IMG/VR virus record: IMGVR_UViG_3300015603_000058
Location: 1 to 26,205 of that record
From: a virus
DNA length: 26,205 bases
Strand: one strand, 5' to 3'
Below, one piece after another: positions 2,056 through 25,141 of this stretch (its first letter is position 1; each line of letters starts with the position of its first letter). The notes under the pieces are model-generated. The model did no database searches and was not told the DNA's origin. It was given only the letters and a program-made list of their open reading frames with translations. The translations under genes and the position numbers were made by a program.

Positions 2056-2448
2056 CTAGTCGCGTGTGTTGAGCACTTGCAGCGCGGCACGCTCCATCTG
2101 CTGGATTTGCCAGAACAAGAGTTTGGCATCGGGCGCGGGGGCGTCGTCAGGCGGGTCGGGCAGGTGCTGCTGCACGTAGTCAAGTAGCTCGTATTTGAGC
2201 CCTTGGTAATGCAGGCCCGCCATACCAAGCTGCATATTCCACTGGCTGGCCATGGCGCAAAACAGATCGCAGCAGCACTGGTGTTCGGGCCATATTTCGA
2301 CCTGGTTTTGCTCGATGTTTTGCAGTAGTTCAGCACGCTTTTGCTCCAGGACTTCGGGCGGCGCACCGCTGGCTTTGAGGCCATCGAGCGCGGATTCATC
2401 AACCGTTGCGGCGCCACCAGTAGCCCAGTGGCGGGCAACGGCGGCTAG
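2056..2448 (-). CDS. T: T extension of tail assembly chaperone, made by -1 frameshift (DUF1799-type)
   Basis: This 130-codon frame is read in -1 relative to the upstream chaperone gene and begins exactly where that gene's slippery site ends, giving a fusion of about 293 residues. It has no credible start of its own: the only internal ATG (2253) has no Shine-Dalgarno sequence and would cut off half the domain. The central part, with EIWPEHQCCCDLFCAMASQW followed by NMQLGMAGLHYQGLKYELL, matches the pattern of DUF1799 phage proteins, which sit in the gpT position between gpG-like and tape measure genes. In lambda the T part of gpG-T contacts the tape measure protein during tail assembly. The stop is 9 nt before the tape measure start. 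Family assignment is from memory of the motif; the frame geometry is seen directly. Confidence 0.85.
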   Translation of the reverse strand, partial: LAAVARHWATGGAATVDESALDGLKASGAPPEVLEQKRAELLQNIEQNQVEIWPEHQCCCDLFCAMASQWNMQLGMAGLHYQGLKYELLDYVQQHLPDPPDDAPAPDAKLLFWQIQQMERAALQVLNTRD

Positions 2449-2454
2449 TTTTTT
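2403..2454 (-). other. Programmed -1 ribosomal frameshift signal (slippery heptamer plus hairpin)
   Basis: On the minus strand the zero-frame codons GCA AAA AAC TAG contain the classical X XXY YYZ heptamer A AAA AAC (2454-2448), with the zero-frame stop directly after it (2447-2445). Six nucleotides after the heptamer a stem begins: CCGTTGC (2441-2435) pairs perfectly with GCAACGG (2409-2403), and inside it CGCCAC (2433-2428) pairs with GTGGCG (2417-2412) around a 10-nt loop. That gives 13 base pairs, mostly G-C, at the usual 5-9 nt spacing. A -1 slip leads straight into the 130-codon T frame. Heptamer, stop, spacer, stem and downstream frame all agree. Confidence 0.88.
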
Positions 2455-2936
2455 GCGGCGAGGTGGGCGCTGGCCGTGGGGCTGAAGGAGCCATAAAACG
2501 CATTCACTGCGGCCGTCAGCAAGCCAATGTATTCGTCGCAGATTTCAAAGAAACCAGCATGAGTGAAAGCAATTGGGTTTTGCCCTTCATCTTGCACGCC
2601 GCTCCAGCCGGTCATGTAGTTGGTCAGCAGCTCGGTAAAGTCAGCGCGGATGTCCTCATTGTTCTCGTCGGTGATTTGTGCGCAGGCGTCATCACTGAGC
2701 TGGTCGGACACGTCAAGCCCTTTTTCCAGGTCGGCGGCGCGTTTTTTGATGGGCGCGAGCTTTTTGTTGCGCTCGGCGTGCTTGATGGCGTTGGCTTTGA
2801 TCAGGGCGTCAAATTCGGTTTGCTTGATGCGCTTGAATTGGGCGTCAAACTTGACTTCTTTGAGGGCGCCACGGGCATCGAGTTGCTTCAAGGTGACAGG
2901 GGCGAAGAACTTGGGGCTGGCAGTTTTGACAAGCAT
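2445..2936 (-). CDS. G: Tail assembly chaperone (gpG-like)
   Basis: This 163-residue protein occupies the lambda G position between tail tube and tape measure genes. The motif TNYMTGWSGVQDEGQNPIAF (about residues 107-126) is typical of phage tail assembly chaperones, which coat the tape measure protein and recruit tail tube subunits but are absent from the virion. The N-terminal half is rich in Lys and Asp/Glu and helical. The zero frame ends on the slippery AAA AAC TAG, so most ribosomes should make this short form and a minority the G-T fusion. The start ATG (2936) has a pyrimidine-rich leader with no visible Shine-Dalgarno sequence; no better start exists in frame. Assignment rests on context and motif. 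Confidence 0.85.
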   Translation of the reverse strand: MLVKTASPKFFAPVTLKQLDARGALKEVKFDAQFKRIKQTEFDALIKANAIKHAERNKKLAPIKKRAADLEKGLDVSDQLSDDACAQITDENNEDIRADFTELLTNYMTGWSGVQDEGQNPIAFTHAGFFEICDEYIGLLTAAVNAFYGSFSPTASAHLAAKN

Positions 2937-2995: not shown

Positions 2996-3973
2996 TTAGA
3001 AGCTGGTGACGATGCGCAGTTCGTTGTTACCGGCACCGGTAGGCGGCAGCACCAGTTTGAAGTTATTCATCAACTTGCCATTGAGGTCGCCGTAGGCGGG
3101 GCTGATGAGCTGCACGCCAGGGGCGAAGATCAGGGTTTTGTTGCCAACAGTGGTACCGTGCACCAGGCCCATGCTTTGCAGGGTGTTGGCTTTGACGCTG
3201 GCCATGAAGGTCACGTCTTGCGCAGCGGTCAAATCGACCTCGAGGTCGCCAGTGATCTTGCGGTCCATGATTTCGACCGACTCACCGCCGATCAAGGGGA
3301 TGAAGGGAGCGTCGACACCAAAGTCAAACGTCAGCTTGCTGTAGGGGGTGACGGTACCGGCCGCCAATGCCGGGGCCACAGTGGGCGCATGGGTGCAACC
3401 GAGCAACAAGTCAGCAGTGTTGGCATCAGAGACCACTTGCGGGGTTTTCCAACTGGTGTAATCAACGCCAGCCGGGGCATCAGCGGCGACACCGCCGTCA
3501 ATGCCTTTGAATTGGAATTTGATCTTCGGAATGACGCCAGCGCTCAGGTCGAGTGAGGCGGTGCCACGGCAGCCCAGCAGTTTGTGCAACACGCCGTCAG
3601 CGTAGTAATACATGTCAACCCACTCAAAAGCGGTACTGATGGGTAGGTAGTCGACCCGCGTGAGGGCTACCAGTGTTTCGGCAAAACCGCAGGCGCGCAG
3701 CAGCGACCCCCAGGACGGCGCGATGCCTGCTGTGCCAGAGCCGACTAACTCAACACTGAAGCCGAGCGATTTAAAGGCGGTGCCGACCAGGTTTTCACTG
3801 GCGCCCATGTAGGCGCGGATGAAATTACGGTCGACGTTGGTCGCTTCCAGTGGCGTGAAGGACACGTCACTGGCCAGGATGGCGTTGGCAGCACCCGTGG
3901 GGATGATGTCAGTGCCATAGATGGCGCCGAGTTTGGCGAGGATGGTGGTGTTTTTAAGGCGACGTGTGGCCAT
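2996..3973 (-). CDS. V: Major tail tube protein (gpV-like)
   Basis: This 325-residue protein is the likely tail tube subunit that polymerises into the hollow tail shaft. It begins MATRRLKNTTILAKLGAIYG and has features common in siphophage tube proteins: an early TDIIPTGAANAILASDVSF segment, a stretch with SLLRACGF, and a predominantly beta, Gly/Thr/Val-rich composition. It lies directly before the G/G-T chaperones and the tape measure gene and 3 nt after a small upstream gene, which is the standard lambda order. It is longer than lambda gpV (246 residues), which usually reflects an added surface domain; many betaproteobacterial prophage tube proteins are of this size. No catalytic motif is expected. 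Confidence 0.82.
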   Translation of the reverse strand: MATRRLKNTTILAKLGAIYGTDIIPTGAANAILASDVSFTPLEATNVDRNFIRAYMGASENLVGTAFKSLGFSVELVGSGTAGIAPSWGSLLRACGFAETLVALTRVDYLPISTAFEWVDMYYYADGVLHKLLGCRGTASLDLSAGVIPKIKFQFKGIDGGVAADAPAGVDYTSWKTPQVVSDANTADLLLGCTHAPTVAPALAAGTVTPYSKLTFDFGVDAPFIPLIGGESVEIMDRKITGDLEVDLTAAQDVTFMASVKANTLQSMGLVHGTTVGNKTLIFAPGVQLISPAYGDLNGKLMNNFKLVLPPTGAGNNELRIVTSF

Positions 3974-13880: not shown

Positions 13881-14023
13881 GGTAAAGAGGCGTTGGGGCC
13901 GTCGACCCATTGGCAGAGATAGCCCAGGGTCAAACATAAAACGTTGGCAACAACAAGCAACGCGACGGCGGCAAACAGGGCGATCTCAAAAGGGAAGACA
14001 GCCAGGTGGCGCAGGGTTTTCAT
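13877..14023 (-). CDS. Small membrane protein (48 residues) between small terminase and methyltransferase
   Basis: This short gene is shorter than common gene-calling limits. Its ATG (14023) overlaps the Nu1 stop by ATGA and its TGA overlaps the methyltransferase ATG by ATGA, so it fits perfectly between two real genes as part of a coupled chain. The product starts MKTLRHLAVFPFEIALFAAV and continues with a long hydrophobic run to about residue 37, then a polar end (QWVDGPNASLP). It is one long or two short membrane segments, with the basic N-terminus likely cytoplasmic. It is too short to name; holin-like, antiholin-like or membrane-exclusion roles are possible but unsupported. Confidence 0.75.
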   Translation of the reverse strand: MKTLRHLAVFPFEIALFAAVALLVVANVLCLTLGYLCQWVDGPNASLP

Positions 14024-14505
14024 GCGCCCTCGCCTTCTTCGTCATCCATAGCGGTGAGGCTGGCCAGGCTCATGTTGGAGGCCAGGTTGAGCACTTCAAA
14101 GACGATGGTTTCTACCAGTTTGAGGTCGTCTCCGGTCAGGTGCGGGCAGCGCATTTTGAGTTGCACGACCAGTGATTGAAGGTGGTCGCGGATTTGGCTG
14201 GCAACGTGGGCGATGATTTGCTCAATCAGGGTGACGGCGGCGTATTCGCGGCGGTCTCTAGCGAGCTGGATTTCATTGCGTTCGCGCGAGACCTGGGTGG
14301 CTTTGGTGCGCTCGCGGGCCAGTTCACCGTCGGCGCCGCGGCCAGCCGCTTGTTCGCGCAGGTGCTCACAGTAGTCGAGCAGCCAGTGGCGGGCGGTTTC
14401 GCCGGGTTGCATTTCGCCGCTGGCGAGGTGGTCGCTGACGGCTTGCTGGCTAACGCCCACGAGTTCGCCAAATTGCTGCTGGGTGCAGGTGTCGTCGAGG
14501 TTCAT
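14020..14505 (-). CDS. Nu1: Terminase small subunit, Nu1 family
   Basis: This 161-residue protein recognises the cos site and loads the large terminase. The N-terminus holds a winged-helix DNA-binding motif, TQQQFGELVGVSQQAVSDHL (about residues 8-27), as in lambda Nu1. The middle is a charged helix (ERTKATQVSRERNEIQLARD, about 66-85), and the C-terminal part is helical with MRCPHLTGDDLK and an acidic end DDEEGEGA. Both ends overlap neighbouring genes by ATGA, tying it to the Z-like gene upstream and the small membrane gene downstream. The order Nu1, then A (with insertions between), is conserved. Confidence 0.85.
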   Translation of the reverse strand: MNLDDTCTQQQFGELVGVSQQAVSDHLASGEMQPGETARHWLLDYCEHLREQAAGRGADGELARERTKATQVSRERNEIQLARDRREYAAVTLIEQIIAHVASQIRDHLQSLVVQLKMRCPHLTGDDLKLVETIVFEVLNLASNMSLASLTAMDDEEGEGA

Positions 14506-15278
14506 GGCGCGGCCCGACTCAAAGCGAAGTCGCAGGACTCTTGCCAGCGCTGGTTGCCTTTGGCCGCAATGGTGTCGGCGATGATTTTGGGCATGTCCAG
14601 GCGCTTGTCATAACTGGCTTTCCGCACAAACTTGAGCATCTGCAGCAGTTTGTGGCCCGGTAGGTGTCGGTACACGCCAGGGGGCAGCCAGCCGCCGCCT
14701 TTGGCTGCAGTGTTTTTACCGGGTGCGATACAAAACATTTCGACTTGAACACCGAGTTTGCGGGCGCGCTTTTGGCTTTTTTCGTAGATTGATTTGCCTG
14801 TTGCGAAGGGTGTGCCTTTTTTGATCTGCAAGATGTTGATGATTTGCTTGTAGACGCTCCCGGGTATATTTCCGTTGGTGTCGACTGGCATAGCTTTGCC
14901 AGGCGTAGTGACCCATCCAGGTGGTAAAAAGCCCGTTCGCATCAACAAGACTTCAATCTTCTTTTGGTGCCGCGAGGGCGTACCCTGCACACCAGGGAGT
15001 AAATGTTCATTAAGGGATTTGCCCATGTCTTCCTGCGATTTTTTGAGGTAAATGCGCGACTCTTGGGTCTTTGGTGTGGCCATGTCGAAAGCCGGGGCGC
15101 GCAGGGTGAACAAGGTCGGCCCCTTGAATGCCACCGGCATCTGCGCGATGATTTCGTCTTTGGCATCTTTCGCCAGCGCGGTCAGCGTCTTGGCCATGGC
15201 AAAGTTCACCTGACGCGGGGCGATCTCGCCGAAGTCTTTGGCCGCCTGCCTGAAATCAACAGAGTGAGTGAGTTCCAT
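14502..15278 (-). CDS. Phage structural protein, possibly minor tail protein Z-like
   Basis: This 258-residue protein begins MELTHSVDFRQAAKDFGEIA; the N-terminal helix FAMAKTLTALAKDAKDEI and the segment PTLFTLRAPAFDMATPKT (about 55-73) resemble the layout of prophage gpZ-like neck/tail proteins. The rest is basic with a Gly/Pro-rich patch (KGGGWLPPGVYRH). It is the first gene of the late module and overlaps Nu1 by ATGA. In lambda, Z lies between FII and U, so the location here would be unusual; a head or packaging protein specific to this group is an alternative. The start is uncertain: ATG 15278 has a weak purine-rich leader, and in-frame starts up to 15323 (TTG) are possible. Confidence 0.6.
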   Translation of the reverse strand: MELTHSVDFRQAAKDFGEIAPRQVNFAMAKTLTALAKDAKDEIIAQMPVAFKGPTLFTLRAPAFDMATPKTQESRIYLKKSQEDMGKSLNEHLLPGVQGTPSRHQKKIEVLLMRTGFLPPGWVTTPGKAMPVDTNGNIPGSVYKQIINILQIKKGTPFATGKSIYEKSQKRARKLGVQVEMFCIAPGKNTAAKGGGWLPPGVYRHLPGHKLLQMLKFVRKASYDKRLDMPKIIADTIAAKGNQRWQESCDFALSRAAP

Positions 15279-15784
15279 ATCAGTCTTAGGTTTGTCGCAG
15301 CACATCCGCAACATCAACCCCAATACTGACTATGGGCTCCAGTGATGTAAAACCCCCCCTACCGCAAAAAAAGCAAGTTATTTTTTGATGTGTTGGGTTT
15401 TTGCCCGGCGGCAGCAGGGTGATTTGCTACTTTTTCCCAGCAACGCCCGGGTGATTTGTTAACCAATGAAGCCCGGTCGGCTTTTCAGTGGCGTGATTCA
15501 GGTCGTTTTTGATCGGCAACACATGGGCTGCTTTGTTGTCGGAGGCGCTTGAGTGGCTTTTTACTACTGTCGCCGGGCTGGTTTTGTTGCCGTAGCCGTG
15601 CTGGTAATGTGGCATTGCCGGTACAACCCCCTTGCACCCGCCCCGCATCTAGCCAATCTTCGCCGTCGAATTAACCCCCGAGGGGGATACCCCTGGGAGT
15701 ACCTTTGCATACTGGGTGGGGTATGCGGTTATGCACAGGCTCAGGACGCTATGAAATCCGGGTTGTGGACAAGTTGGGGACAGG
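15279..15784. other. Gene-poor control region with palindromes and DnaA-box-like sites
   Basis: No convincing gene lies between the late module and the plus-strand island. Seen directly: a CCCCCGAGGGGG palindrome at 15675-15686, GCATAC/GTATGC arms (15708-15713 and 15721-15726) around TGGGTGGG, TTATGCACA at 15729-15737 (matches the DnaA box TTATNCACA), and TTGTGGACAA at 15763-15772 (its complement contains TTGTCCACA, one base off). C-runs and A-runs occur at 15352-15387. The late promoter and the cos site are both expected near here by comparison with lambda, but I cannot point to either. A 73-codon minus frame (15427-15648) looks non-coding. Confidence 0.5.
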
Positions 15785-15818: not shown

Positions 15819-16193
15819 ATGACAAAGACCACCACCACACCAGACCCAGACACCGCACCAGGCAGCGCGAGCACTGGCACGACACCTGGCATCGCGAGCA
15901 CTGGCACGACACCAGGCAGCGCGAGCACTGGCACCACAACACCCGGCACTGCCAGCACATCGGGCGCCTACGCTTATCAGGCGCGCGAGCTGCTGCAGCC
16001 GACACCGGCCCAGGTGCGAGCAGCGCGCCTGCTTTGTGGCCAGACCCAGGCTGCAGCGGCGGCGCTGGTGTATCGTGACGACTCCGCCCGCTGGCGCGCT
16101 TGGGAGCGCGACCCCAGCCAGGCTGGACGCATCATTGATCTAGCCATATGGGAGCTGTACCTGATCAAATCAGGACTTAGGGTAAACACCTAG
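15819..16193 (+). CDS. HTH-type regulator with a repetitive Thr/Ser/Gly-rich N-terminus
   Basis: This 124-residue protein has two parts. Residues 1-48 are low-complexity, built from three copies of a 9-residue unit (GSASTGTTP, GIASTGTTP, GSASTGTTT) encoded by 27-bp tandem repeats. Residues about 62-120 resemble a helix-turn-helix domain: QVRAARLLCGQTQAAAAALV followed by YRDDSARWRAWERD and a helix DLAIWELYLIKSGL, similar to small XRE-like phage regulators. It is the first gene of the plus-strand island, under a strong promoter, with a start that suggests a leaderless mRNA. A regulator of the island is the simplest reading; the targets are unknown. The stop is at 16193 and the next promoter begins 20 nt later. 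Confidence 0.75.
   Translation: MTKTTTTPDPDTAPGSASTGTTPGIASTGTTPGSASTGTTTPGTASTSGAYAYQARELLQPTPAQVRAARLLCGQTQAAAAALVYRDDSARWRAWERDPSQAGRIIDLAIWELYLIKSGLRVNT
15861..15941 (+). repeat. 27-bp tandem repeat (3 units) in the HTH gene
   Basis: Three near-identical 27-bp units encode the 9-residue repeats GSASTGTTP, GIASTGTTP and GSASTGTTT. Differences are a few substitutions. The unit length keeps the reading frame, so copy-number change would lengthen or shorten the linker without breaking the gene. A degenerate fourth unit follows (PGTASTSG). Confidence 0.85.
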
Positions 16194-20841: not shown

Positions 20842-21017
20842 GCCGTTAGGCCCAAAGCAGCCTTGGCCATGGTTTTGGCTGTGGGGTTAACGCGCTCACC
20901 GGCAGCCACTTTAGCCATGATGCGTTTGGCCCAGGCTTTGGGGTCGATGGGTTCCACAGCGCCGGGCTGGGCGACTTTGGCCAAGGCAGATCGGTGCTCT
21001 AGGGTGCTGGCATTCAT
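20838..21017 (-). CDS. 59-residue basic protein of the replication operon
   Basis: This gene is just under a 60-residue limit but is tied in by overlaps on both sides: its ATG (21017) overlaps the replication protein's stop (ATGA) and its TGA overlaps the next GTG (GTGA). The product begins MNASTLEHRSALAKVAQPGA and continues with WAKRIMAKVAAGERVNPTAK, a basic amphipathic helix-rich protein. There is no signal or membrane segment. The function is unknown; small operon-internal basic proteins may bind DNA or a replication partner. Confidence 0.72.
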   Translation of the reverse strand: MNASTLEHRSALAKVAQPGAVEPIDPKAWAKRIMAKVAAGERVNPTAKTMAKAALGLTA

Positions 21018-21943
21018 GCGGACGCCTTTTGTGGTGCGAACTGCTGAGCGCGCGCCACACGCACCCGTTGGGTGTAGTTGCTGAAAAGCTCAACCGTGGG
21101 GTTATTGCACCAACCCCCGATACCCAGGCGCTGACCTTCGGACTCAATCGACGTTCGGCTGTTATCCCACTGCGTAAGGGCCACAGAGGGGGCCGCTGCC
21201 ACAGCAGTTGCCTCGCTGGACTGGCGTCGCACAATGCCGATGATGTAGGGTAAATCGGTTCGGCCTTTTCGCTTTGCCGTTTCTACCGCCGACACAAACG
21301 CCAACGCAGGCACACCGCCGTCAAGCAGCCGAAGCACAACGGGGTTTCCGACCTGTGCGTCGGTGATACCCGCCTGCTGCAACTGCGCCACCAGCGGTGC
21401 ATCTCGCGCCTCAGACCCGTGTGATAACGGGGCCTCGGGGGGTTGGTTGGTTTCTGAAAAATCAACACACACACTGGCCACAGCCTCGCGCCCGCCTGCG
21501 CTCGCGGTGTGTGTTTCTTTCTCTGTATCTGTATCTGTATCTGTATCTGTATCTAGCACCGTTACCGATGCGTTACCGAGTTTTTCCGCCTTTTTCCGTT
21601 CTTTGAATCTGCGTTGGCGGTCGGAATTGGTTGGGTCAACATCGCTTTTCATCTGCCGCTCGTCCCACGCTATGGGTTGATAGGTTTTCGCGTCGATCAA
21701 GCCCATACGCGACAAGCGGGTAATTACTTTTTCCAACTCAGAGCAGGTCAACCCCAGTTTGAGCGCCACCTTGCGCTGCATCATTTCAAAGTCATCGCCC
21801 GAATCCAGGATGCCCTTGCCCTTGATGCATAGTAGCGCGGTAAAGTGCCAGCGGTCTTCAAAGGCCAACAGGCCCAACTTTTCATCATCAATGATTTCGG
21901 TGTACAAGCGCAGCCAGGGCAACGGTTTGATATTTTGGCTCAT
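21014..21943 (-). CDS. Phage replication initiator with DnaD/O-like N-terminal winged helix
   Basis: This 309-residue protein probably recognises the phage origin and loads helicase. The N-terminus reads PLPWLRLYTEIIDDEKLGLL, then AFEDRWHFTALLCIKGKGIL and later LEKVITRLSRMGLID with AWDERQMKSD (to about residue 97), the pattern of phage DnaD-like/O-type replication proteins. A basic linker (RRFKERKKAEKL) leads into a Thr-Asp dipeptide run encoded by five TGTATC/GATACA hexamers, then a C-terminal helical domain and a final AQQFAPQKASA. No helicase or DnaC ATPase motif is present, so it is an initiator without its own loader. It overlaps both neighbours by ATGA. Confidence 0.78.
   Translation of the reverse strand: MSQNIKPLPWLRLYTEIIDDEKLGLLAFEDRWHFTALLCIKGKGILDSGDDFEMMQRKVALKLGLTCSELEKVITRLSRMGLIDAKTYQPIAWDERQMKSDVDPTNSDRQRRFKERKKAEKLGNASVTVLDTDTDTDTDTEKETHTASAGGREAVASVCVDFSETNQPPEAPLSHGSEARDAPLVAQLQQAGITDAQVGNPVVLRLLDGGVPALAFVSAVETAKRKGRTDLPYIIGIVRRQSSEATAVAAAPSVALTQWDNSRTSIESEGQRLGIGGWCNNPTVELFSNYTQRVRVARAQQFAPQKASA
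21524..21553 (-). repeat. Hexanucleotide repeat (5 units) in the replication gene
   Basis: Five perfect TGTATC units on the plus strand (GATACA on the coding strand) encode a run of Asp-Thr repeats in the linker between the two domains of the replication protein. Unit length keeps the frame, so slippage changes linker length only. Confidence 0.9.
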
Positions 21944-24523: not shown

Positions 24524-25141
24524 GTGGAAAACTCAATAGCAATAGCAAAATCACAAGCTCACCAACGCGTCACAAAAGCCATTGAACACGTACTTGGCAT
24601 GGTCGAGGGCATGATTGCCGACAACCACCTGCATGATCTTGAAATCAAAATGCTTGCTACCTGGCTATCAGCCAATCCGGAAATCATTGATATTTGGCCG
24701 GCCAGTGTGATTGCTCGTAAAGTCAGTGACGTGTTGGCTGATGGCGTCATCACCGAGACCGAGCGAAGCTATTTGCTTGAGGTGCTTAAGGAGATTATTT
24801 CCAATAACTTTTCCGAAACCGGATCAGCCTCACCAGAGGCATCTACCCTGCCCATTGACGACTGTGTAACGGTCGATTTCAGAAACGCCGGGGTTTGCAT
24901 GACTGGTGAATTCATTTTTGGCACCCGCGCAGCTTGCGAGCGACTGACCTTAAAAGCGGGAGGAATGCCATTGGACAACGTATCAAAAAAGGTTGATATT
25001 TTGGTCATTGGTACCAGGGTGTCAGTAGACTGGGCGCATACTAGTTTTGGCCGCAAGATTCAAAGGGCGGCGGAGCTTCAGGAACAAGGCCATCCTATTG
25101 AAATTATTTCTGAGAGGCGTTGGCTTGAGGCGGTAGGGTAA
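24524..25141 (+). CDS. BRCT-domain protein with helical N-terminal domain
   Basis: This 205-residue protein has a helical N-terminal half (residues 1-95, with LEIKMLATWLSANPEIIDIW and VLADGVITETERSYLLEVLK; a two-repeat helical layout reminiscent of TerB-like domains), a short linker, and a C-terminal BRCT domain (about 118-205). BRCT hallmarks are VCMTGEFIFGTRAACERLTL, the KAGG turn, VSKKVDILVIGTRVS and the final WL. BRCT domains bind phosphoproteins or DNA ends and are typical of NAD-dependent ligases, but no ligase domain is here. The start is GTG, with AAAGG about 6 nt upstream. It lies after the CI gene and may be expressed in the lysogen. The function is unknown. Confidence 0.8.
   Translation: MENSIAIAKSQAHQRVTKAIEHVLGMVEGMIADNHLHDLEIKMLATWLSANPEIIDIWPASVIARKVSDVLADGVITETERSYLLEVLKEIISNNFSETGSASPEASTLPIDDCVTVDFRNAGVCMTGEFIFGTRAACERLTLKAGGMPLDNVSKKVDILVIGTRVSVDWAHTSFGRKIQRAAELQEQGHPIEIISERRWLEAVG

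Follow-up and report, generated by a model that had tools for sequence, protein, structure and literature searches.

Frameshifting in phage tail-chaperone genes was first seen in phage lambda. Low-level -1 ‘G-T’ frameshifting is widely conserved among long-tailed phages, and the mechanism of lambda gpG/gpGT, the roles of G and T and the molar ratio in lambda (30:1) have been reviewed (PMC5009743). In work with GeneTack, frameshifting of 6-7% was measured in two phage tail-chaperone genes (PMC3711429). Public records also place a -1 frameshift product before the tape measure gene in HK97 (gp13/gp14) and in P2 (E/E'). P2 uses the heptamer TTTTTTG with a stop 18 nt downstream, and the slippery site of HK97 was not resolved by our heptamer scan. 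In the Rhodobacter phage RcapMu (genes 49/50, NC_016165), the record annotates a ‘potential -1 frameshift’ at a junction homologous to the one described here, where the downstream frame belongs to the family DUF1799. Other deposited records of this pair of families (Phage_TAC_4 followed by DUF1799) give two separate coding sequences, and the one paper found to mention DUF1799 says nothing of a frameshift.

Here, we report on such a pair in a viral contig of 26,205 bases (IMG/VR virus record IMGVR_UViG_3300015603_000058, positions 1 to 26,205; hereafter the window). The phenomenon is already established and widely conserved, and the locus adds a member to it. A preliminary description, made from the letters of the DNA, had read the locus as a programmed -1 frameshift making a G-T tail chaperone fusion, and this interpretation is correct as to type: the two protein families and the position between the tube and tape measure genes support it. 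From sequence comparison, we put the probability at about 94% that a programmed -1 ribosomal frameshift yields a pair of tail assembly chaperones from a single mRNA, in the manner of lambda gpG/gpG-T.

All genes of the locus are read from the minus strand, in the order tail tube (3973-2996), G (2936-2445), T in the -1 frame (to 2056) and tape measure (from 2046). The upstream neighbour of G (2996-3973) matches Pfam Phage_tube_2 (E 5.1e-12). The tape measure gene (1-2046), which runs off the window, matches TMP_2 (E 3.2e-71), and its product is the expected client of the G and T chaperones. The two frames are therefore flanked by the tube and tape measure genes, as in lambda, where the order is major tail protein, G, T, tape measure. 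Both halves are placed under tail functions in PHROGs. The window also carries head genes, namely those for a capsid E protein, a head maturation protease, a portal and a large terminase. A homologue of a minor tail protein (14505-15323, minus strand; phrog_1924, E 8.6e-39) is found upstream of the small terminase gene (14023-14505), apart from the other tail genes.

The zero frame encodes a G-type tail assembly chaperone of 163 residues (2445-2936, minus strand), running from ATG 2936 to TAG 2447-2445 and matching Pfam PF08748 (Phage_TAC_4; E 1.2e-5, 25.9 bits against a curated cut-off of 21.1). The T-type extension in the -1 frame (2056-2448, minus strand) starts at CTA 2448-2446, stays open to 2059 and ends at TAG 2058-2056. 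Its 130 codons match PF08809 (DUF1799; E 1.6e-13, 51.1 bits against a curated cut-off of 26), as the preliminary description had proposed for both length and content. In lambda, by contrast, gpG and gpT have families of their own. AlphaFold models of both proteins are confident (pLDDT 92 for T and 91 for G). In fold searches, the T model weakly resembled viral ‘tape measure chaperone’ models (E 0.15 with probability 0.98, and E 0.42 with probability 0.77) and had no PDB match, while the G model had no convincing PDB match; PDB sequence searches returned no usable match. The fold evidence is compatible with a tail chaperone identity, without deciding it.

The last codons of G, read directly on the minus strand, are GCA AAA AAC TAG. 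This places a slippery heptamer, A AAA AAC, at 2454-2448 in the X XXY YYZ phase and the zero-frame stop (2447-2445) 0 nt 3' of it, exactly as claimed beforehand. The -1 direction, a heptamer of this type near the end of G and a T that is read as a fusion are all shared with lambda. What differs is the heptamer itself (G GGA AAG in lambda), the distance to the zero-frame stop (15 nt in lambda) and the presence in the window of a strong predicted downstream stem-loop. The motif A AAA AAC is not rare by itself, as the window holds 11 copies where 6 are expected, and this count is not significant. It is the phase, the flush stop, the open -1 frame with its domain match and the conservation in 44 loci that are above chance. 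The joined frames would make a G-T fusion of 293 residues (163+130), in line with the earlier estimate of about that length.

For the comparison, 44 G/T pairs were gathered from viral contigs, bacterial genomes and named phages, with a copy identical to the window (L001) counted among them. The pairs are partly non-independent (L001 equals the window, and L025 and L026 are near copies), and one marginal homologue that may not belong (L047, E 2e-4, below the Pfam cut-off) is counted within the 44. Besides the identical copy, the window has two close relatives (L002 and L009) and a distant one (L005). Recruitment of loci went by the T frame, and only afterwards was the heptamer sought around the start of T, so a universal heptamer was not built into the search. 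A phased heptamer is nonetheless present in all 44 pairs: AAAAAAC in 29, GGGAAAC in 14 and AAAAAAG in one (L038, A AAA AAG, with its stop 18 nt away). Its phase is kept even where the identity of G to the window drops to roughly 13-60% in diverged relatives. Most homologous G proteins end in KN or GN, and in an alignment of 36 sequences T begins with KKL or GKL throughout, the invariant columns being K2, L3 and one Trp.

Of the DUF1799 loci examined, just one (L017, G150:C92) lacks the heptamer. It has no upstream G either and, resembling a prophage fragment that has been rearranged or has decayed, was excluded from the 44. A match in a genome contig (L004, a Curvibacter MAG) was discarded because it is not a tail gene pair. 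Searches by tblastn with the window's own T and G gave no matches in named phages, which were reached only with the T proteins of relatives (L009 and L016). RcapMu shares with the window a homologous DUF1799 frame, a phased heptamer, a flush stop (TGA) and a downstream stem, but it is a Mu-like phage with GGGAAAC in place of AAAAAAC, and its proteins are only remotely similar (its T is about 31% identical to that of L009). As a separate observation, the DNA identity of the window to L002 is very high on the minus strand between the heptamer at 2454 and about 2260, that is, over some 190 nt of T, and well above that of the flanks. This may reflect recombination as well as constraint.

The following sequence of events would account for these features. 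Most ribosomes would stay in the zero frame, meet TAG straight after AAA AAC and release the G protein of 163 residues. A minority, which the stem-loop and perhaps also the stop codon would hold up at the heptamer, would let both tRNAs slip back by one base (from A AAA AAC to AAA AAA C) and continue through CTA GCC GCC into the fusion of 293 residues. By analogy with lambda, G and G-T would together form a coat on the tape measure protein, with the T domain recruiting tail tube subunits. The slippage, its efficiency, the fusion protein and the roles of the two proteins are thus what we infer, from sequence elements, conservation in homologues and domain identities that are directly observed. 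Tandem slippage of two tRNAs is favoured over slippage on a homopolymer because GGGAAAC and AAAAAAC interchange among homologues. A point that counts against frameshifting is that, in E. coli, A AAA AAC is reported to shift much less readily than A AAA AAG (PMC5009743).

Downstream of the heptamer lies a putative stimulatory stem-loop (2402-2442, minus strand). Folding of positions 2395-2460, a check suggested in the preliminary description, gives a hairpin of 8 bp (2442-2435 with 2409-2402) and 9 bp (2433-2425 with 2420-2412) closed by a tetraloop (2424-2421), with a predicted energy of -28.6 kcal/mol. The GC-rich stem announced there is present, whereas its dimensions (7+6 bp after a spacer of 6 nt) were a slight undercount, because the outermost of the 8 pairs is G-U: the spacer is 5 nt to this pair and 6 nt to the first C-G. 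The stretch of 66 nt scores z = -2.25 relative to dinucleotide shuffles, and the 50 nt after the heptamer score z = -4.06 (computed on the identical copy L001). Taken alone, the stem of the window does not reach significance when the T codons are recoded synonymously (z = -1.16, p = 0.12); in GC-rich DNA, the codons for LAAVARHWATGG therefore account for a part of it.

At the level of the family, the signal is clearer. Across all 44 loci, the stretch of 50 nt that follows the heptamer has a mean z of -1.4 against dinucleotide shuffles and a mean energy of -20.3 kcal/mol, compared to -13.7 kcal/mol in other windows from the region. Its stability also exceeds that of synonymous recodings of the T frame, with a mean z of -1.0 where control windows give -0.2 (p 2e-6), and 16 of the loci are individually at p<=0.05. 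On the other hand, a clear hairpin is absent in several of them (e.g. L016, L023, L025 and L029), so the alignment of homologues that had been proposed as a check upholds the heptamer but not a general stem. Covariation amounts to one compensatory pair in L009, where a C-G of the lower stem has become G-C through a change of both bases and some pairs of the same drawing are broken; the sample of three close relatives is thin. An Rfam search found nothing. The stem likely stimulates the frameshift, though not universally: being strong in many relatives and weak or absent in others, it would be a stimulator in a subset rather than an obligatory part.

The less familiar feature is the flush stop of the DUF1799 lineage. 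The zero-frame stop directly follows the heptamer in 37 of the 44 pairs, while it is 15 nt away in lambda and 18 nt away in P2, and mean heptamer-to-stop distances of 26 and 36 nt were found for two phage sets with PRFect (PMC10885494). By this comparison, the flush stop marks the TAC_4/DUF1799 lineage. Codon choice carries a sign of selection on it. Nearly all loci have Leu as the third T-frame codon counted from the heptamer, and if the codon after it begins with G, CTA is the one choice that yields a flush stop (TAG). CTA is chosen in 8 of the 11 cases that need it (nominal p 7e-8, relatedness ignored), even though it makes up 3% of CTN codons in the structural genes of the window and 7% in the pooled loci. 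Where the codon after the Leu begins with A, the stop-giving CTA or CTG is used by all 29 loci, against a background of 59% (here too, p-values ignore relatedness).

This pattern hints at competition with release factors and leads to a version of the frameshift explanation, compatible with it, in which termination is the main gate: the flush stop would be selected, and release-factor kinetics rather than the stem alone would set the ratio of G to G-T. Several homologues keep the flush stop though they have no clear stem, and stop codons that promote frameshifting (‘shifty stops’) are known from other genes (PMC5009743), so the flush stop would not be a new kind of mechanism. The support for this version is purely comparative, however. 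Selection could instead be for a clean end of G that adds no residues, and the flush stop is absent in 7 of the 44 loci as well as in lambda and P2. We regard gating mainly by termination as a tentative idea, with the odds against it. If it were true, such coupling could tie tail assembly to the translational state of the host.

The remaining alternatives do away with ribosomal frameshifting altogether, and the homologues speak against each of them, most of all because AAAAAAC and GGGAAAC replace one another at the same place. First, T could be translated from a start of its own (ATG 2253 or a non-standard one), perhaps by reinitiation after the G stop, the heptamer being incidental. An ORF of 65 residues does begin at ATG 2253, as the preliminary description had noted, and several deposited phage records give the DUF1799 frame as a separate, shorter coding sequence. 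Yet ATG 2253 is the earliest in-frame ATG, GTG or TTG of T and lies about 65 codons inside it, where initiation would truncate the DUF1799 match. The starts also differ between homologues, while it is the region right after the heptamer (KKL or GKL) that is conserved. The earlier claim that the -1 frame has no start of its own is borne out in this sense, and independent initiation appears very improbable.

Second, a sequencing or assembly indel might have split one continuous gene, a run of six A being a common site for such errors. The identical arrangement recurs in an independent contig (L001), the same break is found in diverged relatives (L002, L009 and L005) and many relatives break at GGGAAAC, where there is no long homopolymer; this explanation has next to no credibility left. 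Equally implausible is a mixed mRNA pool from transcriptional slippage, for although RNA polymerase slips on A or T runs, six A are short for this, and the GGGAAAC of 14 homologues is no homopolymer and suits tandem tRNA slippage.

With the programmed frameshift as the preferred reading, the TAC_4/DUF1799 pair, often deposited as two proteins, is better viewed as one frameshifted tail-chaperone locus, which spans diverse phages and prophages of Pseudomonadota. A likely role for DUF1799, a family of unknown function, therefore follows. Annotators may look for a simple signature: AAAAAAC or GGGAAAC and then a stop, mostly at once. Moreover, the flush stop makes a role of release factors directly testable.

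Elsewhere in the window, a few other features can be recorded. A perfect 6-bp tandem repeat of 5.5 copies (21522-21554; TCTGTA on the plus strand) lies in a gene resembling those of replication proteins (21017-21943, minus strand), where it codes for an Asp-Thr repeat. A 27-bp tandem repeat of 3.1 copies (15856-15938), within a plus-strand ORF (15819-16193), codes for a repeat rich in Thr, Gly and Ser. Finally, a protein of 205 residues (24524-25138, plus strand) strongly matches phrog_3989 (E 4e-60), whose function is unknown, and its C-terminal half shows a weak similarity to DNA polymerase III epsilon and LigA models at their C-terminal end.
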